A DNA stretch of 64,000 bases from Geobacter sp. (GTDB lineage Bacteria; Desulfobacterota; Desulfuromonadia; Geobacterales; Geobacteraceae). The first letter of the stretch is position 1, and each line of letters opens with the position of its first letter. The position numbers were made by a program, and so were the translations under genes. The notes beneath the pieces were generated by a model. That model did not search any database and was not told the origin of the DNA. It saw only the letters and a list, made by a program, of their open reading frames with translations. Location: NCBI GenBank assembly GCA_016177775.1, contig JACOUQ010000015.1, forward strand, positions 248,001 to 312,000. The letters run 5' to 3'. This document shows positions 3,599-10,241 of the stretch, piece by piece.

Positions 3599-3721
3599 GT
3601 AGGGGCGGACCTGTGTGGCCGCCCTGATCCAACCTGACATACGCGTCGAGCCGGGCGCACACGCAGGTGCGCCCCTACCCGGAATGTCAGCATCGGGCGC
3701 ATGCACAGGTACGCCCCTGCC
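3599..3721. repeat. REP/BIME element, copy 1 (two nested hairpin units)
   Basis: Begins GTAGGGGCGG and holds two units: GGGGCGGACC...GGCCGCCC and GGGCGCACACGCAGG...GCGCCCCTAC. Nearly the same 122-bp arrangement recurs at 4015-4136 inside the neighbouring transposase gene, and single units recur at seven or so sites up to 30.6 kb. Confidence 0.85.
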
Positions 3722-3750
3722 AAAACCATTACGTGATATGGTGTTCATTC

Positions 3751-4374
3751 ATGATCTACAATTCCGACATCCATCATCGTCGTTCCATCCGCCTGCGTGA
3801 TTTCGATTATTCATCGCCAGGGGCATATTTCGTCACCATCTGTGTGCAGGAGCGGGCCGGCCTCTTTGGCGACGTGGTGGACGGCGTGATGGTGGCCAAC
3901 GATGCGGGGCGGATGGTGGGAAAATGGTGGCCTGAATTGGCGAGCAAATTCCCGTCTGCTGAACTTGATATGTTTGTCATTATGCCGAATCATTTTCCCG
4001 GCATTATCCTTCTGGTAGGGGCGGACCTATGTGTCCGCCCTGATCAACCTGACATACGCGTCGAGCCGGGCGCACACGCAGGTGCGCCCCTACCCGGAAT
4101 GTCAACATCGGGCGGACACACAGGTCCGCCCCTACCAACGATAATTCAATGGTTCAAAACCATGACGACCAATGAATATATGAAGAACGTTGCGCAATCA
4201 GGTTGGCCGCCATTTCCCGGACGTCTCTGGCAACGTAATTATTACGAAAGAATCATCCGTAATGACGCTGAACTGGAAAAGTTTCGCGCCTACATCCAGC
4301 ACAACCCGGAACGATGGGGAGAGGACGAAGAGAACCCGCTAATTGCCGCCAAGCTCAAGGAGAATATGCCATGA
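3751..4374 (+). CDS. REP-associated tyrosine transposase (RAYT, Y1_Tnp), with REP insertion and altered HUH motif
   Basis: I start it at ATG 3751 (MIYNSDIHHRRS). The N-terminal RLRDFDYSSPGAYFVTICV and C-terminal WQRNYYERIIRN and YIQHNPERW blocks are hallmarks of RAYT proteins, single-strand transposases related to IS200 that mobilise REP hairpins. The metal-binding HUH site, normally MPNHxH, reads MPNHFPG here: the second His is Pro. About 40 residues after it (from VGADLCVRP to GPPLP) are the in-frame translation of a REP element at 4015-4136. The putative nucleophile Tyr is in the RNYYE block. With one His missing the enzyme is probably inactive. The stop overlaps the next start (ATGA-type overlap). 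Confidence 0.85.
   Translation: MIYNSDIHHRRSIRLRDFDYSSPGAYFVTICVQERAGLFGDVVDGVMVANDAGRMVGKWWPELASKFPSAELDMFVIMPNHFPGIILLVGADLCVRPDQPDIRVEPGAHAGAPLPGMSTSGGHTGPPLPTIIQWFKTMTTNEYMKNVAQSGWPPFPGRLWQRNYYERIIRNDAELEKFRAYIQHNPERWGEDEENPLIAAKLKENMP
4015..4136. repeat. REP/BIME element, copy 2, within the transposase coding region
   Basis: Same two-unit layout and nearly the same sequence as 3599-3721, but in frame inside the RAYT gene. It adds about 40 codons without introducing a stop. Confidence 0.85.
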
Positions 4375-4943: not shown

Positions 4944-5414
4944 ATGGAAAATGTTCGCGAACAACTCCGGCTTTTCGTTCGCCGCTTTGGGCTGCTGAAT
5001 GCCTCATGCTGCGAAGTATGCTGCGGCGAGCAGGTGTCTCTGGTCCAAAGCCATATCCTGCTTGAGGTCCGGCGGGTGGGAAATCCCTCCATGCAGCAGG
5101 TGGCGGACGAACTGGGGATGGATGTCACTACCTTCAGCCGGCAGGCCAAGACCCTTGAGGGGAAAGGGCTCATCGCCAGGCGGGTCTCTCCGGAGGACCG
5201 GCGGGTGACCCTGCTGGGGCTGACAGGGGAGGGGGAGCGGGTGCTGGGGCAGATCGACCGCTACATGGCAACCAAGATCGAGCAGATATTCTCCTTCATG
5301 ACCCCCTTCGAGCGGGAGACCGTGAGCAGGTCGCTCGGGCTCCTGAACGAGGCGGTGGCCAAGGCGGGGTGTTGCTGTGCGCCGTCGGATGAAAACATTG
5401 CATGTTGCAAGTAA
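4944..5414 (+). CDS. Cys-rich MarR-family transcriptional regulator, first gene of the hgcAB operon
   Basis: Start ATG 4944 is chosen because AGGAGG (4931-4936) is 7 nt upstream; an ATG at 4938 is too close. The winged helix is clear: NPSMQQVADELGMDVTTFSRQ (recognition region), then GLIARRVSPEDRR (wing). Unusual for MarR proteins are two cysteine clusters: SCCEVCCGE near residue 19, before the DNA-binding domain, and GCCCAPSDENIACCK at the very C-terminus. This suggests sensing of a thiophilic metal or metalloid, or of redox state. It sits 18 bp before hgcA, and regulators next to hgcAB are common in methylators. Ligand and effect on hgcAB are inferred. Confidence 0.85.
   Translation: MENVREQLRLFVRRFGLLNASCCEVCCGEQVSLVQSHILLEVRRVGNPSMQQVADELGMDVTTFSRQAKTLEGKGLIARRVSPEDRRVTLLGLTGEGERVLGQIDRYMATKIEQIFSFMTPFERETVSRSLGLLNEAVAKAGCCCAPSDENIACCK
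5398..5410. promoter_or_regulatory. Second TTGCA-N3-TGCAA dyad, upstream of hgcA
   Basis: TTGCATGTTGCAA lies in the last codons of the regulator gene, 22 bp before the hgcA start. It matches the half-sites of the dyad at 4896-4908. It may be a second operator or coincidental coding sequence. Confidence 0.35.
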
Positions 5415-5432
5415 AGGTGCGGGGAGGTGGGC

Positions 5433-6584
5433 ATGGAGATAAAGGAAATCAGAACGATTGCGGAAGCGAAGATCAAATCCACCCCTGCCGGCTGCGGCGC
5501 CGGTGGCGATGAACCGGACAAGCCCCCCTGCTGAGGACCGCGTCCCCCCGCCGGCGGCGGGGATATCGACGAGACGGTTCCCGGTTTTCTCGGCTGGCGC
5601 GAAAACGCTGCGGGACGGGTTGCGCGGATTGCCACGGAGCTCACGTTCACCGACCGGCTCGGAAGATGGAAGGCCCGCTGGGGTATCGGCCGGATGATCT
5701 ACCTGGTCCCCCCCGGCCTCTATGCCATCGGCGCCCCGGCGCCTGATGATCCGGTGGTGGTGACCGCCAACTACAAGATGAGCTACGACATCGTGCGGCA
5801 GGCACTCTCCGGGCGCAACGTCTGGCTCCTGGTGCTGGAGACCTTCGGCATCAACGTCTGGTGCGCGGCAGGGAAGGGGACCTTCGGCACCGATGAGCTG
5901 GTGCGGCGCATCGAGGCGACAGGGCTTGCCGGAGTGGTGACGCACCGCCGGCTGCTGCTGCCGATTCTCGGGGCGCCTGGTGTGGCCGCCCATGAGGTCA
6001 AGCGGCGCACTGGCTTCACCGTCCATTACGCGACGATCCGGGCGGCTGATCTGGCGGAATATCTGGATAACGGCATGGTCACCACCCCAGCCATGCGGGA
6101 GCTGACCTTCACCTTCTCCGAGAGGCTGGCGCTGGTGCCGGTGGAGTTGGTGCAGGCCCTGAAGCCGGCCACTGTCATTATCCTTTGTTTGTTTCTCATC
6201 GGCTATCTGTTTTGGACCCCGATTGCCGGGCTTAAGGCGAGTCTTGCCTATCTGGGCGCGATGCTGACCGGCGTTGCGGTGGGACCGATGCTCCTTCCCT
6301 GGCTTCCGGGAAGGGGTTTTTCCATCAAGGGGGCCGTGACCGGGCTGGCCTGGAGCGCGGCCTGGTATCTGCTGGCCGGAGGAAACGGCTGGGGATGGCC
6401 GGTGACTGCCGCAGCCTTCATCGCGCTGCCGGCGGTGAGCGCCTTCCATACCCTCAACTTTACCGGCTGTTCCACCTATACCTCCCGCACCGGGGTCAAG
6501 AAAGAGATGCGCCTGAGTATGCCGGCAATGGGCGGGGCTATTGCCGTGAGTTTACTACTGCTGCTGGCCGGAAGGTTTCTGTAG
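5433..6584 (+). CDS. hgcA: HgcA, corrinoid mercury methyltransferase, read as a selenoprotein (Sec34)
   Basis: HgcA passes a methyl group from a cobalt corrinoid to Hg(II). The cap-helix motif NVWCAAGKGTFGT is present; its Cys144 would be the lower cobalt ligand. About five membrane helices follow (roughly residues 255-380), as in the family. The best start is ATG 5433, preceded by GGGGAGGTG. One in-frame TGA (5532-5534, codon 34, right after Cys33, context PPC-U-GP) interrupts it. The frame continues without another stop. The segment just before Met88 (ATELTFTDRLG, ARWGIGRM) is recognisably HgcA, and there is no ATG, GTG or TTG between the TGA and Met88. With the hairpin at 5546-5562 and selD nearby I read it as Sec, giving 383 residues. 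The alternative is a truncated protein starting at Met88. Confidence 0.9.
5532..5562 (+). other. Candidate bacterial SECIS element in hgcA
   Basis: UGA 5532-5534 is followed by a 7-bp perfect stem, CCCCGCC (5546-5552) with GGCGGGG (5556-5562), and a GGC loop. The loop starts 18 nt after the UGA and begins with G, matching what is known of bacterial SECIS hairpins recognised by SelB. Confidence 0.7.
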
Positions 6585-6600: not shown

Positions 6601-6891
6601 GTGAAGGGATTCAGATATCTGCGTGATGCCACGACGCTGGAGTTGCACGAGTCCGCCTGCATCGGCTGCGGCAGGTGCCTGGATGTATGTCCGCACCTCG
6701 TGTTCTGCCTGTCGGACAAGAAGGCCCGAATCACGGACCGTGATGCCTGCATGGAGTGCGGGGCCTGCCGGCGCAACTGTCCGGCAGATGCGATATCGGT
6801 CGATGCCGGGGTCGGCTGCGCCTCGGGGATCATCAATGAATGGCTCCGGGAACGAAAGATCAGAGGAGTCGGCGGCGGGTGTTGTTCCTGA
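6601..6891 (+). CDS. hgcB: HgcB, dicluster ferredoxin for mercury methylation (96 aa)
   Basis: GTG start 6601 with GGAGG upstream, 16 bp after hgcA. Two [4Fe-4S] motifs are intact: CIGCGRCLDVCP (about residues 20-31) and CMECGACRRNCP (about 51-62). The HgcB-specific Cys in GVGCA (about 74) and the C-terminal vicinal Cys pair (GGGCCS) are present. HgcB is thought to reduce the HgcA corrinoid and hand over Hg(II). Size and motif spacing are normal. Together with hgcA this predicts mercury-methylating ability. Confidence 0.96.
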   Translation: MKGFRYLRDATTLELHESACIGCGRCLDVCPHLVFCLSDKKARITDRDACMECGACRRNCPADAISVDAGVGCASGIINEWLRERKIRGVGGGCCS

Positions 6892-6937: not shown

Positions 6938-7234
6938 ATGCTTCCGGAGAAACAGCAGAAAAGGTACGCGGAATTCTACGACTCGGCTCGAAACAACGGC
7001 ATCCTCGACCCGAAGACGACGCTTCTCGTCCATCTCGGGGCGGCGATGGCACTTGGCTGCTCACCCTGAATGGAGTACTACCTTGGCGTGACCAGGGAGC
7101 AGGGAATAACGGACCAGGAGGTAGGTGCAGTACAGGCAGTGGTGATGGCAGTAGCGGCCGGACGGGTCAATGCCCAGTTTCGGGAGGCGGAGAAGCGGTC
7201 TCGAAAAGAAATGAAGACAAGTTGCTCGGGGTGA
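6938..7234 (+). CDS. AhpD/carboxymuconolactone decarboxylase-like selenoprotein (98 aa, Sec44)
   Basis: ATG 6938 follows a strong AGAGGAGGG. The first 43 codons (MLPEKQQKRY ... VHLGAAMALGCSP) run into TGA 7067-7069. The same frame then continues MEYYLGVTREQG...VQAVVMAVAAG to TGA 7232-7234. The joined product is a single-domain CMD-fold protein with the redox motif C-S-P-U, where family members carry CxxC. Sec-containing distant AhpD homologues are known in Geobacter-type genomes. The likely role is a thiol/selenol peroxidase-like or disulfide-exchange function. It is the last gene of the marR-hgcAB operon, which raises the possibility of a role in the same process. Confidence 0.88.
7067..7097 (+). 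other. Candidate bacterial SECIS element in the AhpD-like gene
   Basis: UGA 7067-7069, then CCTTGG (7081-7086) pairs with CCAGGG (7092-7097; one G-U) around loop CGTGA. The loop begins 17 nt after the UGA and has G at its second and fourth-type positions, within the normal SelB-SECIS range. Confidence 0.6.
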
Positions 7235-7275: not shown

Positions 7276-8043
7276 CTATTTTCTTGCGACAAAAATGGCT
7301 GTGCTGTGCGTCATCATAACCCGTCCGCCTTCCCAACGAACTTTCAAGCCGGCCAAGTCTTCCTCTAATGACCGGAGCATCAGCTCTCTGGCGTGCTGTC
7401 GGTTGTCATGCCCCGCGCCGGTCGTTTCCAGCCATTCCTCGAAATCCTGCTGCTGTTCGTAATGGTGGATGCCAACCAGCGGCAGCCCCTGGGCTGCCAG
7501 CAGGGCCTGGATTTCGGTAGGCGAATAGACCTTGACCTTGGATGGAGTGCGCAGCTTTTCGATCCGGTTGTGGTATTCCTGCTTTTCTCCATCTTTCGAG
7601 GCGACCCGGTCGATCAGGACCAGCCGCGCACCGCTTTTTGCGACCCTCTTCATTTCTCCAATGGCGCGCCCGGGGTCCGGGAAATAGTGAAGGGCAAGCT
7701 TGCAGGTGACGATGTCGAAGCTTTCGTCGGGAAAAGGCAATTCCTCCCCATCCGCCAACTCAAAGCCGGTATTTGCAAGGCCCAGGACTATGGCCGCATT
7801 CCGCGCCGCCGCCAGCATCGCCGGGCTCAGATCGACACCAACCGCTGTCCGGACGACAGGGGCGAACTCATTGACGAGAAACCCGGCGCCGCACGCAACG
7901 TCAAGCGTATGGTCTTCGGGCCTCGCTTTCGCCAGCCGCACGATCAATTCAAGCAATACCCTGTCCGCCATGGGGCTGTTTTCGAGATAGTGGCGCGCGC
8001 AGCGGTTGAACTGCTCCTGCACGGTGCTCTTCATGGTTTCCAT
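7276..8043 (-). CDS. Class I SAM-dependent methyltransferase (255 aa)
   Basis: It has a UbiE/Methyltransf_11-like Rossmann fold: SAM motif I LDVACGAGFLVNEF near residue 47, acidic residue at the end of beta-2 (VGVDLSPAM), and post-motif VTCKLALHYFPDP near 112. Its start ATG overlaps the TAA stop of the desulfurase-SelD gene by one base, so the two are translationally coupled. No specific family name is safe. Given the coupling, methylation of a selenium- or sulfur-containing small molecule is a reasonable guess but is not shown by sequence. Confidence 0.85.
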   Translation of the reverse strand: METMKSTVQEQFNRCARHYLENSPMADRVLLELIVRLAKARPEDHTLDVACGAGFLVNEFAPVVRTAVGVDLSPAMLAAARNAAIVLGLANTGFELADGEELPFPDESFDIVTCKLALHYFPDPGRAIGEMKRVAKSGARLVLIDRVASKDGEKQEYHNRIEKLRTPSKVKVYSPTEIQALLAAQGLPLVGIHHYEQQQDFEEWLETTGAGHDNRQHARELMLRSLEEDLAGLKVRWEGGRVMMTHSTAIFVARK

Positions 8044-10241
8044 TAAGGTTCGATCCGGATGCGGTTCTCCGGGTCTTCGACGATCTCCCCGATCTCCGCC
8101 GCAATCGGCACGTTCCTCCTCCCAAGTTCCTCATTCATACGCCGTGAATTGCTGGCGGGAACCGCAATGAGGAGCCCGCCGGACGTCTGGGCGTCGGCCA
8201 GCACCAGCAGCTCATCCTCACCGATGCCTGGAGCGGCGTCGATCCGGTCCCGCAGGAACTCCAGGTTCCTCCGGCTGCCGCCCGGCGCAATCCCTTGCCG
8301 CACCAAAGCCCACGTTTCCTCCAGGACCGGCACCTGTGCAAGCTTGATGACTGCTCCGACGCCGCTGCCGCGGACCATCTCCGAGAGATGGCCGAGAAGG
8401 CCGAAGCCGGTCACGTCGGTGCACGCGTGCGCCCCCACCGCGACCATCGCTTCGGCTGCCTCTTTGTTGAGAGCGGTCATGACGGCAACTGCCTCGGCAA
8501 TGCTCTTCTCCGAAACCTTCCCCTGTTTCATGGCGGTGGTGATGATCCCGATCCCGAGCGGCTTGGTGAGGATCAGCCGGTCGCCCGGCTTGGCCCCGGC
8601 GTTACTGATCACCTTTTCCGGGTGTATGACGGCTGTGACTGCCATCCCATATTTCGGCTCGGCGTCCTTGATGGTATGGCCGCCGATGATGCTGATACCC
8701 GCTTCCGTAGCCTTGTCGGCGCCACCCTGGAGTATCCTGGAGAGGACATCCAGGGGAAGAGTGTCCGCCGGAAACCCGGCGATGTTCAGGGCGAACAGGG
8801 GGGTGGCTCCCATGGCGTAGATGTCGGAGAGTGAGTTTGCGGCGGTGATCTGGCCGAAGGTGTAGGGATCGTCCACGACCGGGGTGAAGTAGTCGACCGT
8901 CTGGACGATGGCGAGGGTGTCGCTCACCCGGTAGACGGCTGCGTCGTCTGCTGTTTTGGTGCCGATCAGAACATTTGGGTCGGTGATGCTGGGTAGCTGA
9001 CTCAAGACTTGAGCCAGGTCCTGTGGACTGAGTTTCGCAGCTCAGCCGGCGCAGGAGGCCAGCGCCGAAAGGCCGGTGCGTTCAAGCGCCTGGGAAGCCC
9101 CTCCCCGGATGGCGCGCAGTTCCTTCACTTTGGTCGCCACGATCCGCGCGGCGCGGTCGACCTCCTCGGCGGTGCTGAGGCGGCCGAGGCTGAAGCGGAC
9201 CGCGCCGAACCCCTGTTCGCGCTGAGTTCCCATGGCTTTGAGCACCCCGGAAAGCTCGCCGCTCCCGTCGTGGCAGGCGGACCCGGTGGATGCGGCGATC
9301 TCCGGGGTCTGTGCCAGGAGCTCCGCGCCTGCAACTCCCCGGAAACTGATGTTGAGGGTGTTGGGGAGGCGGTCGGTCGGGTGGCCGTTCAACTCTACGC
9401 CGTCAACCAGTTCGAGAAGAAGGCCGTGGAACCCCTCCCGAAGGCTGAGGATGCGCTCGCTGTCGATGGCCAGGCGCTCCCCGGCAAGTTCCGCCGCCTT
9501 CCCCAGGGCCGCGATGTACGGGACGTTCTCCGTCCCGGCCCGGCGTCCGCCCTCGTGCCCCGCGCCGTGCAGATAGGAATCTATCTTTACACCGCGCCGG
9601 ATGTAGAGGGTGCCGATCCCCTTGGGCGCATAGAGTTTGTGCCCCGCCACCGTCAGGAGGTCGACCCGCAGCTCGTCCACCAGGGTCGGGACCTTTCCCA
9701 CCGACTGGGCCGCATCGGTGTGAAACAGGATGCCGCGTTCGCGGGCGATCGCGCCGATCTCGGCAAGGGGCTGGATCGTTCCCACCTCGTTGTTGGCGTG
9801 CATGACGCTGATCAGGATGGTCTCGCTGGTGATCGCCCGGCGTACCGCTTCCGGGTCGACCCGTCCGGTTCCGTCCACAGGCAGGAGCGTCACCGTGAAG
9901 CCATGCCCTTCCAGCCACCGGAGCGGGTTCAGTACCGCCGGGTGCTCGATGGCGGTGGAAATGATGTGTCTCCCCTTGTCCCGATTGGCGAAGGCGGTGC
10001 CGATGAGGGCCTGGTTGTTGGACTCGGTGCCGCCGCTGGTGAAGACTATTTCCGTTGGTGCGCAGCCCAACAGGGCCGCCATTCTCACCCGCGCCAGTTC
10101 CACCGCCTGTTTGGCCCTTTGCCCATAGGGGTGGTTGCTGGAGGGGTTGCCGAATCCTTCCCGCAGGAAGTGGAGAAGCTCGTCGACGATGGACGGATCG
10201 ACGGGGGTGGTAGCGTTGTAGTCGAGGTAGATGGGGTCCAT
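8043..10241 (-). CDS. selD: Cysteine desulfurase-SelD fusion selenoprotein (732 aa, Sec400)
   Basis: Residues 1-399 are a complete NifS/IscS-type PLP enzyme: TSGGTESNNQ substrate loop, PLP lysine in VAGHKLYAPKG, and catalytic Cys in GSACHDGSGE. Its apparent stop is TGA 9044-9042. The same frame continues, without any start codon before TTG 9005, as the N-terminus of selenophosphate synthetase: SCAG-U-AAKLSPQDL, then DPNVLIGTKTADDAAVYR through to the end. The UGA falls exactly where SelD has its catalytic Cys/Sec (GAGCGCK in E. coli), three residues before the essential Lys. The fused protein would release Se (or S) from an amino acid and phosphorylate selenide for Sec-tRNA synthesis. GGAGGC precedes ATG 10241; a sulfur-regulon dyad lies 22 bp upstream of the start. 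If the UGA were a stop, both halves would be lost as a working pair. Confidence 0.92.
9018..9044 (-). other. Sec codon and possible SECIS hairpin at the desulfurase-SelD junction
   Basis: On the minus strand UGA (9044-9042) is followed after 13 nt by GTCC-ACA-GGAC (9028-9018). Stem and distance fit a SECIS, but the 3-nt loop lacks G, so this one is weaker than the two on the plus strand. Confidence 0.45.

Follow-up and report, generated by a model that had tools for sequence, protein, structure and literature searches.

Mercury methylation by HgcA and HgcB has been described as a reaction in which SAM is the methyl donor, a cysteine thiolate is the ligand of cobalt and HgcB supplies electrons through two 4Fe-4S clusters, as set out in PMC11588087, which also covers the functional role of HgcA Cys93. 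In HgcB, a Cys94/Cys95 double mutant lost 95% of activity, and the flexible tail that carries this pair has been proposed to move Hg (PMC7305189). Selenium has already been connected with both proteins. A 2026 review (PMC13188914) includes among its selenoproteins the entry 'Mercury methylation corrinoid protein HgcA, NF040863, CU', with WP_250697417.1 as the example under NF040863, and HgcB with the motif GVGU. For both proteins as selenoproteins, PMC11588087 (2024) refers to Haft and Gwadz 2023. The suspicion voiced in the original prediction for the DNA analysed here, that selenocysteine (Sec) in HgcA was undescribed, is overturned by these entries. The Sec form of HgcA is itself not new, and what is added here is how general it is, together with the Met88 start of the protein on record. 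A literature search that left subscription literature mostly outside its reach returned no paper that treats order-wide dominance or the hairpin by title or abstract, and a term search of the main text of PMC2398784 (PLoS Genet 2008), which PMC13188914 cites beside Haft and Gwadz for this family, gave no mention of an HgcA-type protein.

The window, as we call the whole 64,000-nucleotide stretch analysed, comes from a draft Geobacter genome (85% complete, 37 contigs). Its hgcA gene (5433..6584, forward strand) encodes 383 residues with a predicted Sec at position 34. The frame runs from ATG 5433, which is preceded by the purine-rich, ribosome-binding-like GGGGAGGTG (5421..5429, forward strand), to TAG 6582-6584, and its one internal stop is the TGA at 5532..5534, directly after Cys33. 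The original prediction had described such a single frame interrupted by this TGA alone, which translation bore out, as well as the ribosome site, which is present, and the lack of a usual start codon, which agrees with the ORF listing: no in-frame ATG, GTG or TTG lies between the TGA and Met88 (5694). The NCBIfam model for HgcA, NF040863, matched residues 63-382 with 452 bits against a curated cut-off of 275, and 25 of the matched positions precede Met88, which supports both the HgcA identity and the HgcA-type sequence that had been claimed between the TGA and Met88. The cap-helix motif NVWCAAGK occupies residues 141-148, and its Cys144 (5862..5864, forward strand), which we take to be Cys93 of the ND132 protein, is invariant in an alignment of 35 sequences. 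Five long helices between residues 228 and 382 of an AlphaFold2 model form the expected C-terminal membrane domain, and hgcB lies immediately downstream, as expected for HgcA. A search of solved structures with HgcA returned three matches, all of them distant corrinoid iron-sulfur protein subunits. Judged by its sequence, the product is HgcA, and mercury methylation activity is predicted for it.

We next turn to the codon at position 34 in other HgcA, where the original prediction had proposed looking for Cys or Sec. Among 141 genomes of the order searched with the HgcA model, matches above the cut-off occurred at 96 loci in 94 genomes; four further genomes with weaker matches only were left out of the codon reading. 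The site codon is TGA at 84 loci, TGC at 10 and TGT at 1, and the remaining locus starts beyond the site, at a contig end. Cys is the alternative to Sec at this position (CC-G-P versus CU-G-P), which divides the genomes into 83 of Sec type and 11 of Cys type. One Sec-type genome (G037) carries two hgcA copies that are identical across the 65 residues compared. The contigs of named genomes, whose 64 loci partly overlap the order set, gave 60 TGA and 4 Cys, with one of the Cys calls (L105) stemming from a differently arranged Cys-rich tail; the TGA-type strains include Geomonas, Oryzomonas, Geotalea and Citrifermentans. Across 93 distinct sequences from the order, the C before the site and the G and P after it are invariant, in part by selection, since finding the site relied partly on this motif, and the tail further upstream is variable. 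Upstream of the site, 94 of 95 cases show an open stretch that contains a possible start codon, and the remaining one lies at a contig start.

Downstream of the TGA stands a SECIS-like hairpin with a loop of GGC (5546..5562, forward strand), in which 5546-5552 pair with 5556-5562, 18 nt separate the UGA from the loop and the MFE is -13.6 kcal/mol. The 7-bp hairpin with a G-starting loop that had been claimed 18 nt downstream is thus present, weak when taken alone and strong across relatives. Its dimensions fall within the bSECIS rules quoted in PMC13188914 (loop of 3-9 nt, stem of 4-16 bp, G in the first two loop positions, spacing of 16-37 nt and MFE of at most -7.5). Four of 200 dinucleotide shuffles folded at least as well, and z for the 41-nt stretch was -0.66, which made single-sequence folding too weak as proof of a SECIS element, and a comparative test was used in its place. 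Pairs were scored at fixed positions, 14-19 against 25-30 with the T of TGA as 0, in 104 Sec sequences, all unique and drawn from 144 loci (order and named sets pooled), and 14 unique Cys sequences. All six pairs form in 85 of the Sec sequences, five in 16, four in 2 and three in 1, whereas none of the Cys sequences has all six and one has five. For the order loci alone, 73/84 Sec and 0/11 Cys are fully paired. The outer pairs vary on both sides, occurring as CG, TA, AT and TG. Controls that leave shared descent in place formed fewer pairs: exchanging codons among sequences with the same amino acid, with peptides unchanged, gave a mean of 5.40 (2000 shuffles, sd 0.03, maximum 5.48) and at most 68 fully paired sequences, compared with the observed 5.78 of 6 and 85, a mean of 3.65 pairs resulted when the sequences were re-encoded according to the codon usage of the genes themselves (1000 trials, at most 4.0), and sliding the partner strand by 1-3 bases left 2.3 to 4.5 pairs. 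Because pairing exceeds these controls, the hairpin is conserved for its own sake, as far as can be judged from sequence. Rfam at gathering thresholds returned a tRNA only for the whole window.

The genome of the window also encodes the means of Sec insertion. The original prediction had named selA, selB and selC as genes to confirm, and selA (635 bits), selB (387 bits) and tRNA-Sec (76.5 bits) were all found above their cut-offs. The selD gene that it had placed nearby is there as well, as the second half of a NifS-SelD fusion (8043..10241, reverse strand), read as one frame with NifS and SelD family matches and with its own in-frame TGA at 9042-9044. This TGA would encode a Sec in the SelD active-site loop, within SCAGUAAKL at the junction, and translation table 11 splits the fusion into two ORFs. 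Across the order, selA was detected at E 1e-60 in 77/83 Sec-type genomes (76 above the cut-off) versus 7/11 Cys-type genomes (Fisher p 0.015, uncorrected for kinship). As a sharp marker of Sec-type hgcA, selA is weak, and because 7/11 Cys-type genomes carry it above the cut-off, Sec machinery alone does not set the choice between Sec and Cys. At E 1e-5 the six Sec-type genomes without selA again gave no match, and one Cys-type genome (G107) gave a fragment. Three of the six (G057, G071 and G073) have selB above the cut-off, and it was not found at that level in G016 (78% complete), G080 or G091. The last two (loci L041 and L046) are about 99% complete and have a TGA-type hgcA with the hairpin, and with neither selA at E 1e-5 nor selB above the cut-off, Sec decoding there is only predicted; assembly gaps are our guess for the missing genes.

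Immediately downstream of hgcA, hgcB (6601..6891, forward strand; NF040864 125 bits, cut-off 99) encodes a dicluster ferredoxin that contains GVGC and ends in a Cys-Cys tail. Sec at GVGC was ruled out, with Cys found in the window and in 62/62 HgcB readings (two of them GAGC), and the TGA after the terminal Cys pair is taken as an ordinary stop. At six other loci (L065, L079, L082, L091, L095 and L105), TGA follows a single Cys in HgcB where most relatives have Cys-Cys, and this codon may be a candidate for terminal Sec. The next gene (6938..7234, forward strand) encodes an AhpD-like (CMD) protein, P0002, with a predicted CSPU motif at TGA 7067-7069; it matches Pfam CMD with 45.8 bits and lies below the cut-offs of the NCBIfam models matched. 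It is probably a second selenoprotein, with a weak hairpin in the window and a better one in L109, and AhpD-like selenoproteins with CxxU are listed in PMC13188914. P0002 has matches at 15 places in 14/141 order genomes, of which 5 have TGA and 10 a Cys codon for the second Cys of CxPC; hgcB falls inside the locus read in 9/15, including three of the five Sec forms. Between this gene and nifS-selD, a methyltransferase-domain protein (7276-8043, reverse strand) gave below-cut-off NCBIfam matches to selenoprotein methyltransferase families. Upstream of hgcA, a MarR-type regulator (4944..5414, forward strand; Pfam MarR) is Cys-rich at both ends, with CCEVCCGE close to the N-terminus and a final ACCK, and is a candidate sensor of metals or organomercury for hgcAB. 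It has a tblastn match upstream of hgcA in 19/64 named loci, and among these 19 (one partial) CCxxCCG is kept in 16 and an ACCK or ACCN end in 14. The ORF at 3667-4374 presumably resembles a REP-associated tyrosine transposase, and GADLC-type readings recur in overlapping ORFs near it.

Beyond the order, a protein search of 395 genomes from the phylum gave HgcA matches in 126, from which 110 loci were read, leaving out the matches of G159, G417, G170 and G411 (228-239 bits) and all those below 228 bits. Eight of the 110 loci belong to the order itself, the window included. By rule, the N-terminal tail contains an in-frame TGA at 44/110 loci; in one of these (L272) it lies outside a Cys-type motif, which leaves 43 Sec-type loci, made up of 7/8 from the order and 36/102 others. 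Because other tails exist (by rule, a CC motif in 31/110 and neither or unclear in 35/110), the HgcA family as a whole can do without Sec. The hairpins after the TGA codons differ in sequence and mostly share their geometry. Seven of the 44 loci (L192, L194, L209, L215, L222, L225 and L249) have GGCTCAGGTGAGCC, a hairpin unlike that of the window, and in some others, such as L202 and L257, the hairpin is short or misplaced.

Taking together the choice between TGA and Cys in relatives, a hairpin kept beyond the needs of the peptide and the presence of Sec machinery in the genome, we conclude that the UGA in the window is very likely read as selenocysteine, giving Cys33-Sec34, as had been proposed. 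A sequencing error or a decayed gene could be suspected in a draft genome as incomplete as this one, yet the remainder of the hgcA frame is intact and TGA stands at the same codon in dozens of other assemblies, including the Geomonas, Oryzomonas, Geotalea and Citrifermentans strains; this codon comparison refutes an error at the TGA, and the chance that error or decay explains it is negligible. Alternatively, translation could stop at the UGA and restart at Met88, which would make the front piece a leader peptide and HgcA a shorter protein. The predicted protein on record (P0003) is exactly this piece of 296 residues. However, a restart would drop HgcA positions 63-87, including D74, R82, W83 and R87, which are invariant in the alignment of 35, and it sits badly with a TGA that takes a Cys position in 84/96 loci and with a hairpin that goes with TGA and not with Cys. 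A start at Met88 is rejected by the comparison with relatives and by the extent of the HgcA model, and we regard a restart there as very improbable.

With the UGA read as Sec, the remaining question is what a Cys-Sec pair would do in the N-terminal tail. In the AlphaFold2 model, built on the alignment of 35 sequences (mean pLDDT 73.8), residues 1-41 score under 50. Disorder of this tail is suggestive only, because the alignment is shallow and the corrinoid cap loop 138-150 is also of low confidence. Our main reading is that HgcA with the UGA very likely contains Sec and that its Cys-Sec pair, in a probably flexible tail, likely binds mercury for delivery to the corrinoid site, a reading to which we assign a probability of about 0.6. 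SelB would read the hairpin and insert Sec34, which would place Cys33-Sec34 in a disordered tail of residues 1-41. This tail would act as a carrier arm, akin to the C-terminal Cys-Cys tail of HgcB, in which the pair binds mercury and hands it over to the corrinoid site, and Sec may be kept since a selenolate would be superior to a thiolate in binding and exchanging Hg(II) or CH3Hg+. Sec34 could also be real and serve a redox function, in which a Cys-Sec selenenylsulfide would hold the thiol of the cap helix or the corrinoid in the reduced state and the pair would have no part in carrying mercury. The chemistry of a CU pair lends itself to selenenylsulfide formation, and a CxPU AhpD-like protein is encoded directly after hgcAB. 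Against this stand the placement of the pair in a tail without a confident fold and the supply of electrons that already comes from the two 4Fe-4S clusters of HgcB (PMC11588087), and we consider the redox role unlikely, at less than half the weight of mercury transfer.

For the route of Hg(II) to the HgcA corrinoid, the conserved Cys-Sec pair offers a specific residue that can be examined, and it ties methylmercury formation to selenium. We also offer, tentatively and at somewhat less than even odds, a broader view in which selenium is a normal part of bacterial mercury methylation: Sec-HgcA would be the default in the order and common in the phylum, its Cys-Sec tail would be a mercury-loading arm, methylmercury output of these bacteria would depend on selenium supply and standard gene calling would hide the arm by trimming it away. 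Because the protein on record is predicted without its first 87 residues, some of which belong to the HgcA domain, the tail would be missing from any constructs, models and counts that are based on such predictions.

Compared with described systems, the HgcA of the window shares its family and CU motif with the listed selenoprotein HgcA (PMC13188914; Haft and Gwadz 2023), to which it is likened by the listed motif. Cys-type HgcA is the same protein with Cys in place of Sec at 11/96 order loci, and differs in its TGC or TGT codon and in its hairpin, which is fully paired in 0/14 unique sequences. The HgcB selenoprotein with GVGU (PMC13188914) would place Sec in the same complex, whereas HgcB of the window has Cys, as GVGC. 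A NifS-SelD fusion is mentioned as unpublished data in PMC2398784, and selD of the window is such a fusion, likened by that mention alone. The Cys-Cys tail of HgcB (Cys94 and Cys95 in ND132) resembles the Cys-Sec pair of the window as a vicinal chalcogen pair on a flexible tail in the same complex. It differs in belonging to the other subunit, in being C-terminal and in having two cysteines, and no homology is claimed; by analogy, a further flexible pair that sits on HgcA and contains selenium would most simply be another mercury-handling arm.
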